Below are positions 22,587 through 39,285 of a stretch of 40,320 bases of DNA, piece by piece; within the stretch, counting starts at the first letter, position 1, and each line of letters opens with the position of its first letter. The DNA comes from Nitrosomonas sp. (GTDB taxonomy: Bacteria; Pseudomonadota; Gammaproteobacteria; Burkholderiales; Nitrosomonadaceae). The translations under genes were made by a program, and so were the position numbers. The stretch covers positions 14,689-55,008 of the forward strand of contig JAJSDU010000017.1 of assembly GCA_028577615.1 (NCBI GenBank). Reading direction: 5' to 3'. The notes under the pieces are model-generated. The model made no database searches. It was not told the DNA's origin and was given only the letters and a program-made list of their open reading frames with translations.

Positions 22587-22812
22587 GCGTGAGACCTTAA
22601 AATGATAGTTTCGGAGCTGGCCGCCTGCCCGGGAGTCTGCCGGATTCCTGGCTGCGCATTTCCGTATCAAGTTTAGTCTGTAATACAACATGACACAAGC
22701 CATAACTATCCGCCATAACTGCTCGTTGGATCACAATCGGATTGCGCCGATTTGACTGAGTCCAGAAATCGTGGACAATCCAGTGTTCATTCTCATGCAT
22801 GCGGGGATTCTT

Positions 22813-25800
22813 ATGAATTCAGATACGCTCAAAGCCGCCCGGCGCGCCATCAATCAAGCTTATCTCGCCAACGAAGCATCGGCAGTGCAGGATCTACTGG
22901 CGCAATTAACTGATTATCCGGCTGACACGGTTTCCAGATATGCTCAGGAACTGCTTGAGAAAATACGTCATAAACCACACCGGAACATGCCGCATTATGC
23001 CCGGCAGTCGATCACGCAGGCATTTCTGACCGAGTTTCAACTCAACAGCAATGAAGGCGTTGCGTTGATGACCATTGCCGAGGCCTTGTTGCGCATCCCG
23101 GACAAAGCCACACAGGATCGTTTTCTGACCGACAGGCTGAGCGCAGCGGATTGGCGTCCACCTGTGCATCACAGCGACTTATTAACCCGCATGGCAATTG
23201 AAGCGCTGGCTTTTTCCGGATCGCTGGAAAGGCGGCAGTTGCAGATGCAGACGACCCGGCAGCAGTTTCATCCGGTGATTGAAAGATTGCTACTGCGTTT
23301 GGGGCAGCCCGTGATACGCACTGCCATAAAAAAAGCAATGCATGTCCTGGGCGCGCAATTTGTATTTGCAGAAACTATGGAACAGGCCGTTTACAAATCC
23401 GCCAACGCAACCGGAAATGCCGATTATGTCATAAGCTATTCATTCGATATGCTCGGAGAAGCCGCGATTACGGCAGCAGACGCGGATCGTTATTTCGCCG
23501 CGTATCAGCAGGCCATTACGCAACTGGCGGCAAGCCATACATCTGACGCTGAAGATTCCGCCGTCCTTTACACAAGGCCAGGCATTTCCGTCAAACTTTC
23601 CGCGCTTTATCCGCGTTATGAACCGCTTCAGCACACGCATGCCGTACCTGAATTGACATTCAGACTGTCGCAGCTTGCAATTCAGGCGCGCAAGGCAGGT
23701 ATCACACTGACCATCGATGCTGAAGAGAGCGAACGCCTGGAAATGGCGCTGGATATTTTTGCGGCGGTTTTCATGCATCCAAAGCTGGATGACTGGCCTG
23801 GATTAGGACTGGCTGTACAGGCTTATCAGAAGAGTGCCGTTCATGTTATCCGCTGGCTTGAGCAACTGGCGAAATGCGGACAGCGCAGAATTCCTGTCAG
23901 GCTGGTCAAAGGCGCGTACTGGGACAGCGAAATCAAGCGTGCGCAGGAAAGCGGTCTGGACGGCTATCCCGTTTTTACCCGAAAATCGGCGACCGATATC
24001 AGCTATCTGGCCTGCGCGCAATTGCTGATCAATGCGTCGGATTACTTTTTTCCGCAATTCGCCACGCATAACGCGCATACCGTTGCCGCCATTATGCAGA
24101 TGGCGCAAGGACATCCCGGTTATGAATTTCAGCGATTGCACGGCATGGGCGATGCGTTGTATCAGGCCATTCAAGCGCATGTGGATCAGCCGATTTCCTG
24201 CCGCATCTATGCGCCCGTTGGCGGGCATCAGGATCTGTTGCCCTATCTGGTGCGGCGCTTGCTTGAGAACGGTGCAAATACCTCTTTTATCAATCAGGTC
24301 GAAAATCCGGATATTGCCATGGACGAAATCACCCGTGACCCGGTCGCTGTCTGGTTGAATGGGAAACAGGAAGGGTTGCCGTTACCCGCTGCGCTGTATG
24401 GCCGTCAGCGCCGTAACGCGCAAGGATTGAATCTGGCGGATCCGCAGATCCGGCAACAGATTCAGCAAGATCTGAACCAGCTTGCGGACAAATATCACCG
24501 GGCTGTGCCATGGATCGGCGGCAGGGCGCATGCAGGCCGGGCACAGGCGATTGCCGCCCCTTATGATCATCAGGAAATCGTTGGCGAAGCAGTCTACGGC
24601 GGTCGGGAGGCGACGGCCGATGCGCTGGATGCCGCCATCGCCGGCTTCGACAGCTGGCGATTGCAACCCGTTGAGCAGCGTGCAGCCTGCCTGCTGAAAA
24701 CCGCTGACCTGATGGAGCAACAGCGCATGGGTCTGGTATCGCTTTGCGTACGGGAAGGCGGGCGCACGATCAGAGATGCACTGGCCGAAGTACGTGAAGC
24801 GGTCGATTTTTGCCGCTACTACGCGGCGAACGCACTGGATTTGTTTAGCAAGCCCATCACGCTGCCAGGACCGACAGGAGAAATCAATCAACTGCGCTAT
24901 TCAGGGCGAGGCGTTTTTGTATGTATCAGTCCCTGGAATTTTCCGGTCGCCATATTTACCGGCCAAATCGCAGCGGCACTGGCTGCCGGTAATACGGTAA
25001 TCGCCAAGCCCGCAGAACGCACCACGCTGACCGCAATGGCGTGCGCGCGTATTTTTTATCAGGCCGGCATCCCGGAATCGGTATTGCATTTTCTGCCCGG
25101 CAAGGGCTCTGAAATCGGCCATCAGCTGATCGGAGACGACCGTGTCGCAGGCGTTGCCTTTACTGGTTCCACCGCAACCGCGCAGTGGATCAATCAGCAA
25201 TTATCCGGCCACCCGGTTATTGTTCCGTTCATCGCGGAAACCGGCGGCCAGAATGTGTTGATTGCCGACAGCTCCGCGCACAAGGAGCAATTGGTACAGG
25301 ATGCTGTGTTATCCGCGTTCAACAGCGCCGGACAACGCTGCTCGGCGCTGCGGGTATTGTTTGTGCCGCATGAAACCGCAGACCGGATCAAGGCGCTGCT
25401 GATCGGCGCAATGCAGCAGCTGCGGCTTGGCTCGCCCGCCGATTATGCCGTCGATATCGGGCCAGTCATCAGCACATCCGCAGTAACGCAACTCAAAGCC
25501 CATGTCAGCCGTATGCGCGCGAGGGGCAGCACAGTCTATCAACTACCCCTGTTTTCCGACGCCATTCATTTGTCGCGTGTACAAAGCGGTTATTTTTATC
25601 CGCCGACGTTGATCGAATTGCAGGCGATGCAACAGCTGCGCGAAGAAGTCTTTGGACCGGTGCTGCATCTTGTCCGCTATGCTTCCAATGAACTGAATGC
25701 CGTCATTGAAGCTGTCAACGCCAGCGGTTATGGACTGACGCTGGGCATTCACAGCCGTATTCAGCACACGATTGAAACCATCCGACAGCGCGCCCGGGTC

Positions 25801-25998
25801 GGTAATATCTACATCAATCGCAACATGATCGGCGCAGTGGTTGGCGTACAACCGTTTGGCGGCATGGGTTTATCCGGCACCGGCCCGAAAGCGGGCGGCC
25901 CGGATTATCTGCGCCGTTTTGCCGTGGAGCAGACGGTTACCGACAATGTCGCGGCATTCGGTGGCAATACCGGTCTCCTGATGCAGGATCTGCTTTAA
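22813..25998 (+). CDS. putA: Bifunctional proline dehydrogenase/P5C dehydrogenase PutA
   Basis: A 1061-residue protein from ATG 22813, chosen for its GGGG site at 22803-22806; GTG 22771 and ATG 22795 are in-frame alternatives. The N-terminal half is the FAD-dependent proline dehydrogenase barrel (RPGISVKLSALYPRYE, RLVKGAYWDSEIKRAQ, YATHNAH-like FATHNAH). The second half is the aldehyde dehydrogenase: SPWNFPVAIFTGQIAAAL, FTGSTATA, ETGGQN and GQRCSALR with the catalytic Cys843. It turns proline into glutamate in two steps. It starts directly in the alpha-helical domain, without the ribbon-helix-helix DNA-binding domain of E. coli PutA, so it should not be an autorepressor. Confidence 0.95.
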   Translation: MNSDTLKAARRAINQAYLANEASAVQDLLAQLTDYPADTVSRYAQELLEKIRHKPHRNMPHYARQSITQAFLTEFQLNSNEGVALMTIAEALLRIPDKATQDRFLTDRLSAADWRPPVHHSDLLTRMAIEALAFSGSLERRQLQMQTTRQQFHPVIERLLLRLGQPVIRTAIKKAMHVLGAQFVFAETMEQAVYKSANATGNADYVISYSFDMLGEAAITAADADRYFAAYQQAITQLAASHTSDAEDSAVLYTRPGISVKLSALYPRYEPLQHTHAVPELTFRLSQLAIQARKAGITLTIDAEESERLEMALDIFAAVFMHPKLDDWPGLGLAVQAYQKSAVHVIRWLEQLAKCGQRRIPVRLVKGAYWDSEIKRAQESGLDGYPVFTRKSATDISYLACAQLLINASDYFFPQFATHNAHTVAAIMQMAQGHPGYEFQRLHGMGDALYQAIQAHVDQPISCRIYAPVGGHQDLLPYLVRRLLENGANTSFINQVENPDIAMDEITRDPVAVWLNGKQEGLPLPAALYGRQRRNAQGLNLADPQIRQQIQQDLNQLADKYHRAVPWIGGRAHAGRAQAIAAPYDHQEIVGEAVYGGREATADALDAAIAGFDSWRLQPVEQRAACLLKTADLMEQQRMGLVSLCVREGGRTIRDALAEVREAVDFCRYYAANALDLFSKPITLPGPTGEINQLRYSGRGVFVCISPWNFPVAIFTGQIAAALAAGNTVIAKPAERTTLTAMACARIFYQAGIPESVLHFLPGKGSEIGHQLIGDDRVAGVAFTGSTATAQWINQQLSGHPVIVPFIAETGGQNVLIADSSAHKEQLVQDAVLSAFNSAGQRCSALRVLFVPHETADRIKALLIGAMQQLRLGSPADYAVDIGPVISTSAVTQLKAHVSRMRARGSTVYQLPLFSDAIHLSRVQSGYFYPPTLIELQAMQQLREEVFGPVLHLVRYASNELNAVIEAVNASGYGLTLGIHSRIQHTIETIRQRARVGNIYINRNMIGAVVGVQPFGGMGLSGTGPKAGGPDYLRRFAVEQTVTDNVAAFGGNTGLLMQDLL

Positions 25999-26171
25999 CA
26001 AAATGGCATGGATCCAGTAAATCATGTCAGAACTGGACAAGAATCAACTTTCGCTTTCCCGGTGTTGCTGACCAAGTATCCAATAATTGCCGTTTTCCTT
26101 TTATGTCTCAAGAAACTTAAATGCATATCGCCTTTTGTTTTTTTGTTACATACTAAACAGACTAGGCATCA

Positions 26172-26549
26172 TCAGAACATGCGAGCACCTTGGATCAAAC
26201 GACAATCATTCGGACTACATCCTATGCTTGCACCAGAAGTATCATTTGGGTTATACCAAATGGTCAGTTTTTTTTGCAAAGCGAACGCAGTGGAAAGAAT
26301 GCTCAGCATGCGATTAGCTTCTCCCTCATTATTTACGCCGAGCGCAAACCACTGGATAGCGCCATTTGCAGGTGAACATTTTACATGGATTCGCTTTCCC
26401 GGAAATGTAGCAACATCGACCGGATTACACGTAAACTCGGCTGCAAGTGCGATTTTTGGAAATGACATACCTGATGCAAAAAAAATGAAAGCAGCCAGCA
26501 TTACATATCGATGAAATTGAAATTTACTGGGTAATGTACTTTTCTTCAT
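26172..26549 (-). CDS. Small exported four-cysteine protein, unknown
   Basis: A 125-residue protein from ATG 26549, which has a strong AAAGGAG site; an ATG 13 codons upstream is less likely. A signal peptide covers ~1-36 (MKKSTLPSKFQFHRYVMLAA... ending ALAA). The mature part of ~89 residues has four cysteines (FTC, VKC, IGC, NDC), suggesting two disulfides in the periplasm. The GCSPNDCRLIQG end has the look of a small beta-rich domain. I do not recognise the family. It is the last gene of a three-gene unit with the two amine-oxidase-like genes, 48 bases after the preceding stop, which suggests a shared role. Confidence 0.72.
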   Translation of the reverse strand: MKKSTLPSKFQFHRYVMLAAFIFFASGMSFPKIALAAEFTCNPVDVATFPGKRIHVKCSPANGAIQWFALGVNNEGEANRMLSILSTAFALQKKLTIWYNPNDTSGASIGCSPNDCRLIQGARMF

Positions 26550-26597
26550 TTTAGGTTCTCCTTTTATGAATCTACGAGTGAGTCTCAACTACTTCCC

Positions 26598-27704
26598 TTA
26601 ACGCAAAGGCATTTGAATCAATTGCAGAATCTTTGCATGAATATTATTACTGCGACGCTTAAGCTCGCGCTCCGTGTAATGCAAAGGCATTTGAGTCAAT
26701 TGAAGAATTTCAGCCGTTCTTGAAACTACATCGATTGTCAAACCGGTGGAATGCCATTCAGGATTATCTTCGTCAGCCTGAGTCCACTGATGTGACAAAT
26801 GTCCAACAGCCCAAAACACAATGTCTTTACCATTCACATCTTCACCCGGAAGCCATTCCGGATTTTTGTAACCAAGATGTTCATCCCAGTCAAATATCCA
26901 CCCCTCATCTTCACTGCTGTGATAGCGGCGCACTCCCATATCCTTACTGCTGAAATGGAACCATGGACTACCTCCTTCATCACGCAGTTCGTTGGACGGA
27001 GCACGAATTAACACATGACTGTTTGAGCCCGGCTTATTGATTGTCCATGCGATTGATTTGTCATCGGCTAATTTCCAGGAATTCCATTCCTCAGGGTATT
27101 TAAAAACCTCTACTGAATTGTTGTTCTTTGTGCGAATCCGCCATACTTCGTTTGAATTGCCTTCAACGTCGAAATCAAGCCGCCAATAAGGGTGATGCTT
27201 GTGGTCAAGCCCGTGACCATCCTCGTTGCCGTCCTTATCGCATGACCAGCCGCTGCTATAGACTACCGGCTCGAGTCTGCCGGATTTGTGAAAATACCAA
27301 GCCTGATAAATATCATAGCCACCTATTTCAGCAAAGATCGCTATTTCAAATATCTGATCATCGAAAACCCTGCCGATGACGGGTGTTAATTGACCTGGCA
27401 AAAAACTGATATTTCCCTCGTGTATACGATCACGATAAGGTCCGCAGCCATCTCCCAAACTGCTGCTATCTCCTCGGTATTTAACCCGGATGACAGGCAG
27501 ACTGCCTTTATGCAGTATTTTGGTGCCATTCCACCGGACATTTTTTATTACGAGCCCTTCCTTGTTTTCATCCCCAATTTCCCACTCAAAACTCCAGTTT
27601 CCCCAATTCATACTGCCTGTCGAAGGAAGAGGCGGAATCAATTGAGCATAGACAGGTATCGAAACCAACCATAGACATAACAGGAGAATCTGAATTAATC
27701 GCAT
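26598..27704 (-). CDS. Exported copper-amine-oxidase-like catalytic-domain protein
   Basis: A 368-residue protein with an excellent AAAGGAGG site and a signal peptide (1-20, ending VYA). The rest resembles the C-terminal beta-sandwich of copper amine oxidases: GLVIKNVRWNG (~50), IGGYDIYQAWYFHKSGRLEP (~127-146), DHKHHPYWRLDFDVEG (~167-182) and IVFWAVGHLSHQW..EDNPEW (~295-317). His168/His170 and His302 or His305 match the copper-ligand positions. Tyr130 aligns with the topaquinone tyrosine, but the usual N-Y-[DE] is G-Y-D. The protein is about half the normal length and lacks N-terminal domains. The family call is mine from remembered motifs. Activity and cofactor formation are uncertain. Confidence 0.6.
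   Translation of the reverse strand: MRLIQILLLCLWLVSIPVYAQLIPPLPSTGSMNWGNWSFEWEIGDENKEGLVIKNVRWNGTKILHKGSLPVIRVKYRGDSSSLGDGCGPYRDRIHEGNISFLPGQLTPVIGRVFDDQIFEIAIFAEIGGYDIYQAWYFHKSGRLEPVVYSSGWSCDKDGNEDGHGLDHKHHPYWRLDFDVEGNSNEVWRIRTKNNNSVEVFKYPEEWNSWKLADDKSIAWTINKPGSNSHVLIRAPSNELRDEGGSPWFHFSSKDMGVRRYHSSEDEGWIFDWDEHLGYKNPEWLPGEDVNGKDIVFWAVGHLSHQWTQADEDNPEWHSTGLTIDVVSRTAEILQLTQMPLHYTERELKRRSNNIHAKILQLIQMPLR
26603..26708. repeat. In-frame direct repeat at gene 3' end
   Basis: Twenty-eight bases at 26603-26630 recur at 26681-26708 with two mismatches, with a period of 78 bases (26 codons). Both copies encode ILQL-T/I-QMPL at the C-terminus of the amine-oxidase-like protein. This looks like a recent short duplication that extended the reading frame. 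Confidence 0.85.
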
Positions 27705-27737
27705 TTTTCCTCCTTTACAAAGACAAAGGATTCGTAA

Positions 27738-28451
27738 TTACTGCCGAGTTGACTTCGCTTTTACGACTTGCTCGAGTGTCATATCCACTATCGCCCAGAA
27801 AACGCTCGATTTTTTATCTTCCTTGTAAAAAAGCAGATATAGATGACGGTTTCTGTTTTCGCTCGGGGTTTGGATACCGCGGACGGTTAAGCCGCCCACA
27901 ATATCTTTGTATCGTGGATCTTTCTGCACAATCCCGGCAGCAGCATTTACTTCTTCGTGCGATTCAGGCGGCTGGTAACTTTCGGGCATTTGTTGAACTT
28001 CAATCACCTTGTCGCCTATCATGCGAACTTTAAGCGCCCGGTTGTTCGAATAGCTATAGAATTCAATCCATAACATGTCGGGTTGGGCCCTCTCCTTTAC
28101 GGGAGAGGCTTCTCCTCCACCAATGACGACAAAACGCTTTCCAAGGGCTTCAGTAACTCTTGTGTCAAGCTGGGAATTACTTAGAGCTTCAGCTCGCACC
28201 TCTGAAGCTGGCCGCATGCTTCGCGCTTCAAATGCTGGCAGCACACCTTCGCGGAGTTTTATTTCTCTAAGTTGTGGTGGGAACCCCTTTTTGTGTTCAG
28301 GGGTAATGGTTTTGTGAATTGATGGGAATTCCCCACGCTTGTATTGCTCCAGATATGGAGCTTCTTCTAGGGTTTCTTCTGATTGCAAGTATCCAGTAGC
28401 CGGGGTAAACAACACAATGATCGCCAGACAGAATCTAAACATGATCTTCAC
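27738..28451 (-). CDS. Exported protein, amine-oxidase N-domain-like
   Basis: A 237-residue protein with an AGGTGAAG site and a signal peptide (~1-20). Residues ~50-110 are low in similarity to anything I know. The C-terminal ~100 residues (IGDKVIEVQQMPESYQPPESHEEVNAAAGIVQKDP, ~145-178, then RHLYLLFYKED...VDMTLEQVV) resemble the small N2/N3 domains of copper amine oxidases, where an E-x-x-x-A helix is followed by a strand pair ending in VD-x-T-x-x-x-V. That would make it the missing N-terminal half of the protein encoded 33 bases downstream. This is inference from pattern and position, not a firm match. Confidence 0.5.
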   Translation of the reverse strand: MKIMFRFCLAIIVLFTPATGYLQSEETLEEAPYLEQYKRGEFPSIHKTITPEHKKGFPPQLREIKLREGVLPAFEARSMRPASEVRAEALSNSQLDTRVTEALGKRFVVIGGGEASPVKERAQPDMLWIEFYSYSNNRALKVRMIGDKVIEVQQMPESYQPPESHEEVNAAAGIVQKDPRYKDIVGGLTVRGIQTPSENRNRHLYLLFYKEDKKSSVFWAIVDMTLEQVVKAKSTRQ

Positions 28452-28769
28452 CTAGCTTTTTGGTTTGGATTGAAAAATTTATACGCCGTTACTTTGTTGA
28501 TGTCAATAACTTTTGCTGCTGACACTGCTTTTGTAGAATGAGATTTTTACAGGATTTCTTATGATTTGCTAATGCATTGTTTATATTGTTTTAAGATTTC
28601 ATGGGATAGGGTTTTGAAAAAGTGTATCCTATATGCGATATCAACTATTTATTGCCGAATCGGATAGAATGGCAGCTTCCAAAGCGCCAGTAACGGAAGA
28701 AACCCTGAAGTGCATCCTATACCTATGATCAACGGAAATGCATCAATCCATTTTCTCACGTTTTATTGA
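28452..28769. other. Divergent A/T-rich intergenic region
   Basis: These 318 bases separate the amine-oxidase-like cassette (minus) from the efflux operon (plus) and should hold both promoters. The part from ~28500 to 28640 is very A/T-rich, including TTTATATTGTTTTAAGATTTC. I see no gene, repeat or regulator recognition site that I could name. Confidence 0.4.
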
Positions 28770-30188
28770 ATGAAATTCAATCCTCAACGACGAAAGACAT
28801 TTACGGCGATTCTGTTGTCGAGTTTGTTCCTGACTGCCTGCGCATTGGGTCCGGATTATCAGCGCCCGAACATTGAAGTGAACGAACAGTTCCGGATGAA
28901 TCAACATGAAGGCGCATCGATTGCTACGCTGAACTGGTGGGAACTCCTGCACGACGAAACGCTGCAAAAACTGATTCTCCAGGCGCTGATTAATAATCAG
29001 GATCTTAAGCAGGCTGCCGCCCTGGTTGATGAATTCCATGCGCGTTCGAATATCGCGCGGATGGATTTCCTGCCTAACTTGGAAGGCAGGGCAAACGCGC
29101 CCTTTTTCGGTACATTGGGTGGATTCTCCCGGGCTGGCTTTCCCACTGATTTCAATTATTTCGGCAATGCCGCGCTGAACTGGGAGATCGATGTGTGGGG
29201 CAGAATCCGCCGGGCGACTGAAGCGGCCCGCGCCGACCTGTTTGCCCGGGAAGAGAACCGCCGGGCAATCATTCTCACGTTGGTCAGCGCCGTCGCGCAG
29301 ACTTATTTCGACCTGTTGCAGTTCGACATGCAACATGAAATCGCGCTTCGCGCATTGTCTTCCTGGGAGGAGTCAGCCGCCATTTCCCGGGCGCAGCTGG
29401 AAAGTGGCCTGATATCACGGCTCGATCTGGATCAGTTTGAAGCCGAGCGCGCCAATGCTGCTGCGCTGGTGGCGGAGTTTGAACGGTTGATTGTGCAAAA
29501 GGAAAATGAACTGAATGTGTTGTTAGGGAAAAATCCGGCGCCAATCGTAAGAACGCATACGCTGGCACAGCAATCCATACCGCCCGAAATTCCGGCTGGA
29601 TTGCCCTCCGAATTGCTGGAGCGGCGGCCGGATATATTGCAGGCCGAGCAGGCACTGACCGCTGCAACGGCTCGTGTCGGCATGACAAAGGCCATGCGTC
29701 TGCCACGTTTCTCGATCACCGGGTTTATGGGTGTGGCCAGTCCGGCACTGTCCAACCTGTTACTGTCGGATGCGGATTTCGGCACGGGCGGCATAGGACT
29801 TGCCACACCCTTGTTTAACGCCGCCAGCCTCGGTTTCGAACAACGCGCAGCCGAAGCCCAGGTCAGGCAGGCGCTGGCGCATTACAGGCAGACAGTACTG
29901 GCCGCCTTCAGGGAAGTCGAGGATGCGTTGATCACGATCCGCACATCCCGTGATCAGCGCAGGGCCAGGCAGCGGCAGGTTGAAGCGCTGCAATCCGCGT
30001 TGCATATCGCGGATTTGCGATATAAAGGTGGTATTACCAGCTATGTCGATGTGCTGCTCGCCAAGCGCAATTTGTTTCAGGCGGAATTCTCGCTGACCGA
30101 ATCGCACCGTCTGCATCTGGTTTCGATCGTTCAACTCTACAGAGCGCTCGGCGGCGGCTGGAATCCCGGAGATCAATATGAAGAATAG
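28770..30188 (+). CDS. RND efflux outer-membrane lipoprotein (NodT/OprM type)
   Basis: A 472-residue outer-membrane factor. The lipoprotein signal ends in LTAC with Cys24 as the acylated residue, followed by ALGPDYQRP, which is near-universal in this family. Two repeats of the outer-membrane efflux domain follow: FGNAALNWEIDVWGRIRR in the first, ELLERRPDILQAEQALTAATARVGMTKAMRLP in the second. It forms the trimeric channel through the outer membrane for the pump encoded downstream. It is the first gene of the operon, which is unusual since the adaptor gene often comes first. Its stop lies within the start of the next gene. Confidence 0.92.
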   Translation: MKFNPQRRKTFTAILLSSLFLTACALGPDYQRPNIEVNEQFRMNQHEGASIATLNWWELLHDETLQKLILQALINNQDLKQAAALVDEFHARSNIARMDFLPNLEGRANAPFFGTLGGFSRAGFPTDFNYFGNAALNWEIDVWGRIRRATEAARADLFAREENRRAIILTLVSAVAQTYFDLLQFDMQHEIALRALSSWEESAAISRAQLESGLISRLDLDQFEAERANAAALVAEFERLIVQKENELNVLLGKNPAPIVRTHTLAQQSIPPEIPAGLPSELLERRPDILQAEQALTAATARVGMTKAMRLPRFSITGFMGVASPALSNLLLSDADFGTGGIGLATPLFNAASLGFEQRAAEAQVRQALAHYRQTVLAAFREVEDALITIRTSRDQRRARQRQVEALQSALHIADLRYKGGITSYVDVLLAKRNLFQAEFSLTESHRLHLVSIVQLYRALGGGWNPGDQYEE

Positions 30189-37997: not shown

Positions 37998-38343
37998 TGA
38001 AGTGGTCAAGTGTTTTGTGACAACCCAGTTAAATGACCTTTTTCAGTTTTGCCATATCAGCTTCAAATTGTATTGGGCTTCTATAATCCAGATAAGAATG
38101 TAGTCGATGGCTGTTATAGAACATGGATATGTAATTCAATATATCCTGTTGCGCTTCATATCGTGTTTGATAGTGACGCCATTGCACCCGTTCTCGTTTT
38201 AAGCTTCCAAAGAAGCTTTCCGCAATTGCATTATCCCAACAATTTCCCAGACGACTCATGCTGCCAATAAAACCGTATTCTTTCAGTAGGTTACTGTATG
38301 CTTTGCTGGCATATTGGGTGGATTCAACCGGTCTTCGCAACAC
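37998..38343 (-). pseudogene. IS3-family orfB 3' remnant with one IS end
   Basis: The minus-strand frame 38343-38029 encodes the end of an IS3-type integrase: QYASKAYSNLLKEYGF, GNCWDNAIAESFFGSLKRERV (with the catalytic Glu) and HRLHSYLDYRSPIQFE. The upstream half, including two catalytic Asp residues, is missing; similarity starts at about 38315. The terminal TGAAGTGGTCAAG begins at 37998 and is the probable IS right end. It inserted into or recombined with the IS5 remnant and is cut on the other side by the IS30 element. Confidence 0.78.
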
Positions 38344-38363
38344 GTTTGATCATGGAGGTATTT

Positions 38364-39212
38364 ATGGGACGACCGGCGGGATGGGTGCGAAAGTTGACGA
38401 AGAGAGGGGCGATGCGCTCGTCAGGTGCGCCGTTACTTCGCAGCGAGATTGAGCGGCTATTTTGGGAGCTGATTGCAACCGGGATAACAAGTGAGAAAGC
38501 GGCAGAGGCCGTTGGTGTATCGTCAGCGGTGGGCGCCCGCTGGCTCCGTTATCGTGGCGGGATGCCATTATTCATGTCTAATCCCATATCCGGAAGATAC
38601 TTGTCATTCGTTGAACGAGAAGAGATTGGACTGCTGCGAGCGCAAAGTATTGGCGTGCGTGAGATTGCTCGCCGCCTTGAGCGAAGTCCGTCGACAATTT
38701 CACGGGAGCTGACTTGTAATGCTGCGACTCGTAGCAGTCGGCTTGAGTATCGCGCTTCAGTCGCATAGTGGAAGGCGGAACTGGTTGCCAAGAGACCGGA
38801 AACGGCGAAACTGGTGACAAACCCTGGATTGCGCCAATATGTTCAAGACCGCTTGGAAGGGAAGATTCATGGCGCTGATGGGCGTAAAATTGCGGGGCCT
38901 CAACAGGCACTGTTCATAGGACGAAATAAGCCACATCGTGGTGACCGTAAATGGGTCAAAGGCTGGTCGCCTGAACAGATTGCCAATCGGTTACTGCTAG
39001 ACTTCCCAGAGGACAAATCTATGCGCATCTCTCAAGAAGCCATCTATCAGGCTCTTTACATTCAAGGTCGAGGTGCTCTCAAACGCGAGTTGGTGAGTTG
39101 TCTGCGCACGAGACGAGTGTTGCGCGCACCGAGAGCCAGGGCACAAGCTAAAGCGTGGGCTCATGTCAACGAAGATGTCATGATTTCTAGCCGCCCTGCA
39201 GAGATAGAAAAT
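38364..39212 (+). pseudogene. IS30-family transposase with internal stop, truncated
   Basis: ATG 38364 follows a GGAGG site at 38354-38358. The frame contains a helix-turn-helix region (LSFVEREEIGLLRAQSIGVREIARRLERSPSTISREL), typical of IS30. It then hits an amber stop at 38766-38768, where a CAG (Gln) would be expected, and continues in the same frame through WKAELVAKRPETAKLV, WVKGWSPEQIANRLL and EAIYQALYIQGRGAL. It ends at SSRPAEIEN, just before the conserved GHWEGDLI catalytic region. The truncation point coincides with the 28-bp inverted repeat. It is not functional. Confidence 0.82.
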
Positions 39213-39285
39213 TGAATCGCCCCGGGTTTACAAGAGACTCTATTCTCTCACGAATTCGAGTCTCTTGTAAACCCGGGGCGATTCA
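39213..39285. repeat. Perfect 28-bp inverted repeat of IS3-type ends
   Basis: TGAATCGCCCCGGGTTTACA... at 39213-39240 is an exact inverted copy of 39258-39285, with 17 bases between (containing GAATTC). TGAATCGCCCCGGGTTT resembles terminal repeats of one IS3 subgroup. The two ends face as in an intact IS, so this looks like an element that lost its whole interior. No clear target duplication flanks it. The hairpin could form a very stable structure in RNA. Confidence 0.8.

Follow-up and report, generated by a model that had tools for sequence, protein, structure and literature searches.

Two neighboring minus-strand genes, P0001 and P0002, in a 40,320-nucleotide (nt) stretch of DNA from Nitrosomonas sp. 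(assembly GCA_028577615.1, contig JAJSDU010000017.1, positions 14,689 to 55,008 of the forward strand; referred to as the window from here on) probably encode an exported amine oxidase of two subunits that depends on copper and a quinone. The reading draws on results that were computed directly, namely the predicted folds of both proteins, the conserved pairing or fusion of their genes across genomes, the conservation of ligand and cofactor residues and the presence of extra DNA at the locus. An initial annotation of the window had described three consecutive minus-strand genes as an exported cassette with a possible split copper amine oxidase (CAO), and the three open reading frames (ORFs) are present as it described:

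27738..28442, minus strand: P0001, 234 amino acids (aa), putatively exported partner with two predicted tandem N2/N3-type domains (residues ~80-231)
26598..27704, minus strand: P0002, 368 aa, putatively exported CAO catalytic domain without N2/N3
26172..26549, minus strand: P0003, 125 aa, putatively exported, with four cysteines; a passenger or an optional accessory

As the initial annotation had also proposed, catalytic and N2/N3 parts that normally lie in one chain fall into two genes here, with a gap of 33 nt between P0001 and P0002 (48 nt separate P0002 from P0003). The preferred starts of P0001 and P0003 are the ATG at 28442 (a GTG lies 9 nt upstream, at 28451) and the ATG at 26549, respectively. 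The good ribosome-binding sites claimed for all three genes were seen as strong sites 5' of P0002 (AAAGGAGGAAAAATG) and P0003 (AAAAGGAGAACCTAAAATG); the site before P0001 is weaker.

P0002 passed the cut-off of the Pfam family PF01179 (Cu_amine_oxid; E value 1.9e-9, 37.3 bits, cut-off 27), which was matched by 49/49 P0002-family rows scanned. When a profile of 49 family rows (85 in the full set) was compared with the PDB, 35 distinct sequences were matched, with a best E value of 4.5e-16; these are named amine, diamine or lysyl oxidases, except 3pgb, a putative uncharacterized protein that is named an amine oxidase among the fold matches of P0002. The AlphaFold2 model of P0002 (predicted local distance difference test (pLDDT) 78.9, predicted template modeling score (pTM) 0.83) had as its best PDB match the phenylethylamine oxidase of Arthrobacter globiformis (AGAO; 1.3e-16), and 50/50 matches listed were CAOs. 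The likeness of P0002 to CAOs thus far exceeds chance, and on profile and model evidence it is a CAO catalytic domain with a predicted beta-sandwich fold, as had been supposed for the middle gene.

For P0001, a single-sequence search of Pfam, NCBIfam and PADLOC gave no match. Because of this, and because its family profile fared only marginally against the PDB (see below), we base its assignment on profile-profile comparison with hhalign, on one Pfam match and on the predicted fold. The P0001 family aligned in register by hhalign with the region preceding the catalytic domain in nine canonical CAOs (75% probability, 2.5e-5, residues 76-231), compared with 0.1% for the control with the canonical catalytic domain; further, the N-terminal part of fused relatives, which are described below, scored 98.7% to the P0001 family and 86% to the canonical N2/N3 region. 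The Pfam family AGAO-like_N2 was matched by 1/48 P0001-family rows (4.9e-4, the best E value of that scan), with the 11 other families matched all at 0.0055 or worse. The AlphaFold2 model of P0001 (overall pLDDT 80.2, pTM 0.66, with block means of at least 92 across residues 81-230 except 71 for residues 111-120) consists of two helix-plus-four-strand units, and CAO chains account for all of its 36 best PDB matches (2.3e-5 to 1.6e-3). The two units fit passages of PMC3382800 in which D2 and D3, two small alpha/beta domains, are traced to a presumed duplication. We conclude that P0001 is, as judged by family profile and model, an N2/N3-type partner homologous to the CAO N2/N3 domains; the proposal that the upstream gene resembles these domains holds at that level and found no counterpart in the single-sequence searches, Pfam included.

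Relatives were collected by scanning genome contigs with the pattern HH[PNV]YWR[LF][DE], which includes His170, His171, Tyr173, Trp174 and Arg175 of P0002. The scan returned 154 stretches and 128 relatives; the 80 relatives most like the window were kept, and with four further loci (L003, L004, L030 and L031) the set comprises 84, and a catalytic ORF is present in 84/84. By record title, the 80 scanned loci belong to Nitrospirota (40), Actinomycetota (14), Pseudomonadota (9, including L040, which groups among Nitrospira in the tree below), Acidobacteriota (7), Bacillota (6), Bacteroidota (2), Bdellovibrionota (1) and Rhodothermota (1), shares that are not prevalences because likeness to the window decided which loci were kept. 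The N-partner is encoded by a separate neighboring gene in 59 loci, is fused in front of the catalytic part, in the same order, in 24 and falls in neither class in one locus, which is cut at a contig edge (the split or fused label of L093, L102 and L111 was set by hand). Recurrence in other genomes, which the initial annotation had expected of all three genes, was thus observed for the pair, and many of the bacteria that carry it are nitrite oxidizers. Eight loci (L030, L031, L064, L072, L075, L077, L084 and L086) have a catalytic start overlapping the partner stop by 4 nt, the start being taken in each as the candidate nearest that stop. A hidden Markov model of the split partners of the main clade only recognized fused N-termini, among them that of L101 (2.5e-11), as well as the L030 partner (3.5e-5), and gave no match at E 10 to the partner ORFs of L031, L102 and L111. 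The L031 partner is linked to the family through that of L030, and the partners of L102 and L111 are alike, with weak matches to those of L031 and L030 (7.5e-6 and 9.3e-5). A pattern-independent profile search of 398 genomes of the phylum gave matches in 20, the family members being in the window's own genome and in the two genomes that carry L030 and L031 (G213 and G450); the other 17 match partially, within long frames of canonical appearance.

A quick tree combined nine canonical rows with 57 family rows out of 85 (the 84 loci and the window), 66 in total, with Shimodaira-Hasegawa-like approximate likelihood ratio test supports only. From 17 canonical-type loci (L009-L025), 13 ORFs were taken; the wrong-frame L010, L013, L020 and L021 were excluded, and the other nine are the canonical rows of the tree, of the hhalign comparison above and of the residue alignment below. 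Nitrospira was thinned, L081, L091 and L108 were omitted, and L102 and L111 were left unlabeled. The family separates from the canonical rows, and the window groups with Methylibium (support 100) within a split clade of 21 rows (99). The tree needs three changes in all among split, fused and canonical labels; the fused locus L076 of Nocardia is placed among split relatives, and the separated form has apparently re-fused once. We do not use the tree to order fusion and splitting because, as the tree program warned, the fused group and the canonical rows are joined through long branches.

Some loci of the set have features of their own. The catalytic parts of L003 (5998-8067), L043 (7974-10397) and L060 (7974-9212) carry C-terminal extensions, which in L003 consist of repeats with a weak Pfam match to FG-GAP. 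The split pairs of L030 and L031 lie downstream of an ORF that by eye resembles the end of a multihaem cytochrome and that gave no Pfam match in the part scanned. In L004 (5296-9077, a Variovorax plasmid), the gene after a fused relative carries a galactose oxidase-like annotation, and in L093 (5221-8864, Brevibacillus), a second family ORF lies just upstream of the fused ORF.

Residues of P0002 were compared in an alignment of the 85 family rows together with the canonical ones. The candidate active-site residues are as follows:

27315..27317, minus strand: Tyr130, candidate precursor of the quinone cofactor, in 85/85 rows; aligned with the AGAO tyrosine that becomes topaquinone (TPQ)
27195..27203, minus strand: His168-x-His170, candidate copper ligands, in 84/85 and 85/85 rows
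26790..26792, minus strand: His305, candidate third copper ligand, in 80/85 rows; aligned with the third histidine of AGAO
27429..27431, minus strand: Asp92, possible catalytic base, in 84/85 rows, the remaining row being truncated

G129-Y130-D131 and H168-x-H170 are thus found where the initial annotation had seen them. His168, His170 and His305 all align with the copper histidines of AGAO at the sequence level, and of the two residues put forward for the third ligand, His305 takes that position and His302 is a further conserved residue (79/85 rows). The invariance of His170 is partly a matter of choice because it lies in the scan pattern. The exceptions in this alignment include the truncated L091 and L081 and L110, which has Arg at His168 and His305. 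Tyr76 is present in 84/85 family rows, and the same column is Tyr in 9/9 canonical rows; by alignment it corresponds to Tyr284 of AGAO, given in passages of PMC9491219 as a conserved tyrosine bonding TPQ. The near invariance of Asp92 and its Y-x-D context, as in AGAO, only suggest that it may be the catalytic base.

The surroundings of these residues differ from those in canonical CAOs. The canonical TPQ consensus T-x-x-N-Y-[DE] reads E-I-G-G-Y-D in P0002, with Tyr and Asp kept and Thr and Asn lost. Across the 85 rows, Tyr130 is preceded by E in 42, W in 27, A in 8, R in 3, G in 2 and Q, H or N in one each, and followed by H in 50, R in 29, D or K in 2 each and Q or M in one each, compared with N before and D after in 9/9 canonical rows. 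His171, Tyr173 and Trp174 occur in 85/85 family rows and 0/9 canonical ones, a marker for which only the window, L003, L004, L030 and L031 count because the other 80 were chosen by the pattern. In the ten family rows listed, the spacing from Tyr130 to His168 is 29-38 residues, compared with 50-58 in canonical rows, and that from His170 to His305 is 118-138, compared with 156-163.

All three proteins of the locus have a hydrophobic lead, with maximal Kyte-Doolittle values over 12 residues of 2.57, 2.84 and 2.25 for P0001, P0002 and P0003, compared with 1.38, 1.62 and 1.53 in the remainder of each. The signal peptides assigned to them by the initial annotation are supported to this extent, i.e. 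as judged by hydropathy alone. Among the 59 split loci, the catalytic ORF has such a lead within the stretch tested in 44; L030 and L031 fail the test yet show a lead by eye. The pair is probably exported in the window and in Nitrospira and not always elsewhere, as far as such leads tell. A strict lipobox pattern was passed by 10/59 partners only, and for this reason we do not claim lipoprotein anchoring for the family; by eye, many more partners have a cysteine after the lead.

If the two proteins form an oxidase, it might work as follows. P0001 and P0002 would be exported and meet outside the cytoplasm, where P0001 probably docks on P0002, supplying the N2/N3 domains and helping to shape the amine channel. 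We take positions 155 and 156 of HPAO-1 to be located in D2. Both positions are counted among the channel residues in passages of PMC3382800. The three histidines of P0002 would hold one copper, and copper and O2 would convert Tyr130 to TPQ or a close variant; the quinone would then oxidize a primary amine to an aldehyde, with release of ammonia and H2O2. Ammonia freed outside the cytoplasm, near the host's own monooxygenase, could feed host metabolism. Complex formation, copper and TPQ content, amine oxidation, the substrate and the role are what we infer from the computed results.

Several results weigh against a two-subunit amine oxidase. The P0001-family profile matched CAOs in the PDB only marginally (0.066), mixed with unrelated proteins (0.075 and 0.26). 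The hydrophobic-lead test is failed by 15/59 split loci, including all eight of Actinomycetota. Asp92 is not placed on the canonical base by the alignments, and the third copper histidine is missing in the alignment from L030 and L031 (Asp) and L110 (Arg). Because the loops between motifs are shorter, the usual beta-hairpin dimer arms may be missing. Finally, N-Y-[DE] is replaced by G-Y-D, E-Y-H, W-Y-R and others throughout the family, and known enzymes are impaired when the motif Asn is lost: in the portions of the sources available, the loss lowers kcat of AGAO ~160-fold (PMC9491219), and HPAO-1 with Asn changed to Ala has 5-10% of its TPQ left (PMC3382800). AGAO N381A still makes TPQ, ~180-fold slower, according to the same part of PMC9491219. 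Because the loss of Asn slows TPQ formation and does not abolish it, TPQ is possible in the family and would need compensation, or else a different cofactor is used.

The latter alternative, in which the protein is a copper enzyme that keeps the CAO scaffold but uses a different cofactor or catalyzes a different reaction, with Tyr130 modified otherwise or acting as a redox tyrosine beside the copper, is in our judgment unlikely. The noncanonical neighbors of Tyr130 in almost all rows (Asn is kept in 1/85), the cost of losing Asn in known CAOs (in the parts consulted of PMC3382800 and PMC9491219) and the His, Tyr and Trp after H-x-H that the window, L003, L004, L030 and L031 share independently of the pattern all point toward it, whereas the copper ligands, the precursor tyrosine and Tyr76, which are requirements of TPQ formation, have been kept. 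Still less probable is a nonenzymatic derivative, i.e. a copper-binding or structural protein that retains the CAO fold. Such a protein would have no need of Tyr130 (85/85 rows) or of Asp92 and Tyr76 (84/85 each) merely to bind copper, even though the consensus around the cofactor tyrosine is lost, L030 and L031 carry Asp for the third histidine, and likeness in Foldseek or in sequence says nothing about activity. That P0001 and P0002 are independent proteins sharing only an operon, as the separate signal-like lead on each might suggest, is very improbable because the partner is adjacent or fused in the same order in 83/83 loci not cut at a contig edge, and because the best match of both in the locus set lies in one genome, that of Methylibium.

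Beyond the two-subunit amine oxidase itself, a broader proposal would place the pair in a class of two-chain copper quinoproteins not described before, spread across phyla and marked by a distinct cofactor-tyrosine signature, through which nitrifiers free ammonia from amines and polyamines extracellularly; this we put forward as a rather doubtful extension.

The third gene does not belong to the conserved unit, contrary to the three-gene cassette first proposed. No relative of P0003 was found among ORFs of at least 60 aa in the 84 related loci, in 60 relatives of the host, in the other 397 genomes of the phylum sample, on plasmids or on viral contigs (where relatives of P0002 and of a further query, A2, were also not found), and library searches gave no family match. 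In the order sample (399 genomes), there were two confident relatives (2e-13 and 5e-11) and 16 further matches at 0.006-0.05, eight of them containing internal stops. Both confident relatives keep the four cysteines and lie directly upstream of a different, exported-looking protein of 702 or 807 aa (L174, 4954-7695, and L175, 4758-7671, in two genomes), with no CAO among the ORFs listed around them; the one of the two large neighbors that was scanned had no Pfam match. PDB matches of P0003 were antibody chains (0.049 to 1), which we took as chance. P0003 is therefore treated, on sequence comparison, as a passenger or an optional accessory.

The surroundings of the three genes comprise the following features:

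22771-25998, plus strand: putA (named by eye), flanking the trio on one side
28770-30188, plus strand: outer-membrane efflux gene (named by eye), flanking the trio on the other side
25998..28528, strand not assigned: ~2.5 kb of DNA without a counterpart in the close relative G002; right edge approximate
26599..26708, minus strand: 32-nt direct repeat at the end that encodes the C terminus of P0002, copies 78 nt apart

In G002, the putA and efflux genes, which are closer to those of the window (91% and 94%) than in any other relative examined, adjoin each other. BLAST similarity to G002 stops at window position 25997 and restarts at 28722; degraded similarity on the efflux-gene side reaches leftward to ~28529 (score 73, compared with a maximum of 40 in 200 shuffles), and on the putA side a finer alignment left no residual similarity above shuffles (26 vs 33). 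The ~2.5 kb in the window (25998 to ~28528) thus stands against ~80 bases in G002. P0002 was found in 1/61 genomes searched, its own, and in 0/60 relatives, of which 36 belong to the same genus; the own genome has no second PF01179 match. Among 300 genomes sampled from the order, a clear family member was found in the own genome only; in one other genome, a frame of 768 aa gave a weak and partial match (4.1e-4) and was taken as a canonical CAO. Because P0002 is absent from the other relatives, we infer a gain here, by horizontal transfer of the P0001/P0002 pair, over a loss in G002; no repeats marking a mobile element were seen at the ends of the insertion. The fraction of G+C is 0.42-0.45 across the trio compared with 0.55-0.59 in the near flanks, so the A/T-rich island of the initial annotation is real relative to those flanks and is not exclusive to the trio, since other parts of the window go down to ~0.435. 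The host is probably an ammonia oxidizer because a fragment of an AmoB-type gene (PF04744, 228 bits) lies at the end of one of its contigs. A promoter scan of the window stayed at the level of shuffles (5 found, 5.9 expected), and all seven of its terminator-like sites (2.8 expected) fall on the plus strand; neither was used for the minus-strand genes. A defense-system reading of the locus was dropped after a PADLOC search. Elsewhere in the window (38029-39215), short ORFs resemble remnants of insertion-sequence transposases by eye.

No published split, two-subunit, heterodimeric, heteromeric or truncated CAO and no secreted amine oxidase operon in Nitrospira were found in a literature search that left most subscription literature outside; a two-chain CAO is thus, provisionally, apparently undescribed. 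Broader queries brought up general CAO papers or unrelated work. In the parts of these sources that were available, CAO structures are described in which a single chain carries D2, D3 and the catalytic domain (PMC3382800), a survey of beta-proteobacterial copper proteins includes the Pfam CAO domain and is silent on a two-gene pair (PMC6769254), and a 2025 CAO tree of life is built on plants and animals (PMC12058724). A naturally separated CAO that has been kept in several phyla offers a handle on the role of N2/N3, and the family allows one to ask how the quinone forms without the motif asparagine. The pair may also bear on the use of organic nitrogen by nitrifiers. According to portions of a 2023 survey of 70 nitrifier genomes (PMC10753782), genes for metabolizing polyamines and methylamine are missing from most, Candidatus Nitrospira defluvii being among the strains without polyamine catabolism, and these compounds could be ammonium sources for such nitrifiers only if degraded or oxidized extracellularly. 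The two-gene pair is present in the genome record of Ca. N. defluvii (L066), which makes a direct test possible.

Compared with known systems, the window pair shares with AGAO the catalytic fold, the three copper histidines, the precursor tyrosine, the TPQ-contacting tyrosine and the N2/N3-type domains, as far as alignment and models tell. AGAO is one chain with N-Y-D, whereas the window pair is two chains with G-Y-D, shorter loops between motifs and other residues after H-x-H. P0004 of the Variovorax plasmid and the Bacillota loci L087-L092 have an N-part and a catalytic part in the same order as the window pair but as one chain of ~530-580 aa, and those that were aligned have W-Y-R around the cofactor tyrosine. 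Methylibium rhizosphaerae (L032) and Ca. N. defluvii have the two-gene arrangement and signal-like leads seen in the window; Methylibium is 54% identical to P0002 in the catalytic domain and also has G-Y-D, whereas Ca. N. defluvii has E-Y-H. Both differ from the window in that no relative of P0003 was found with them and in that the partner's lead is followed by a cysteine, which by eye looks lipoprotein-like.

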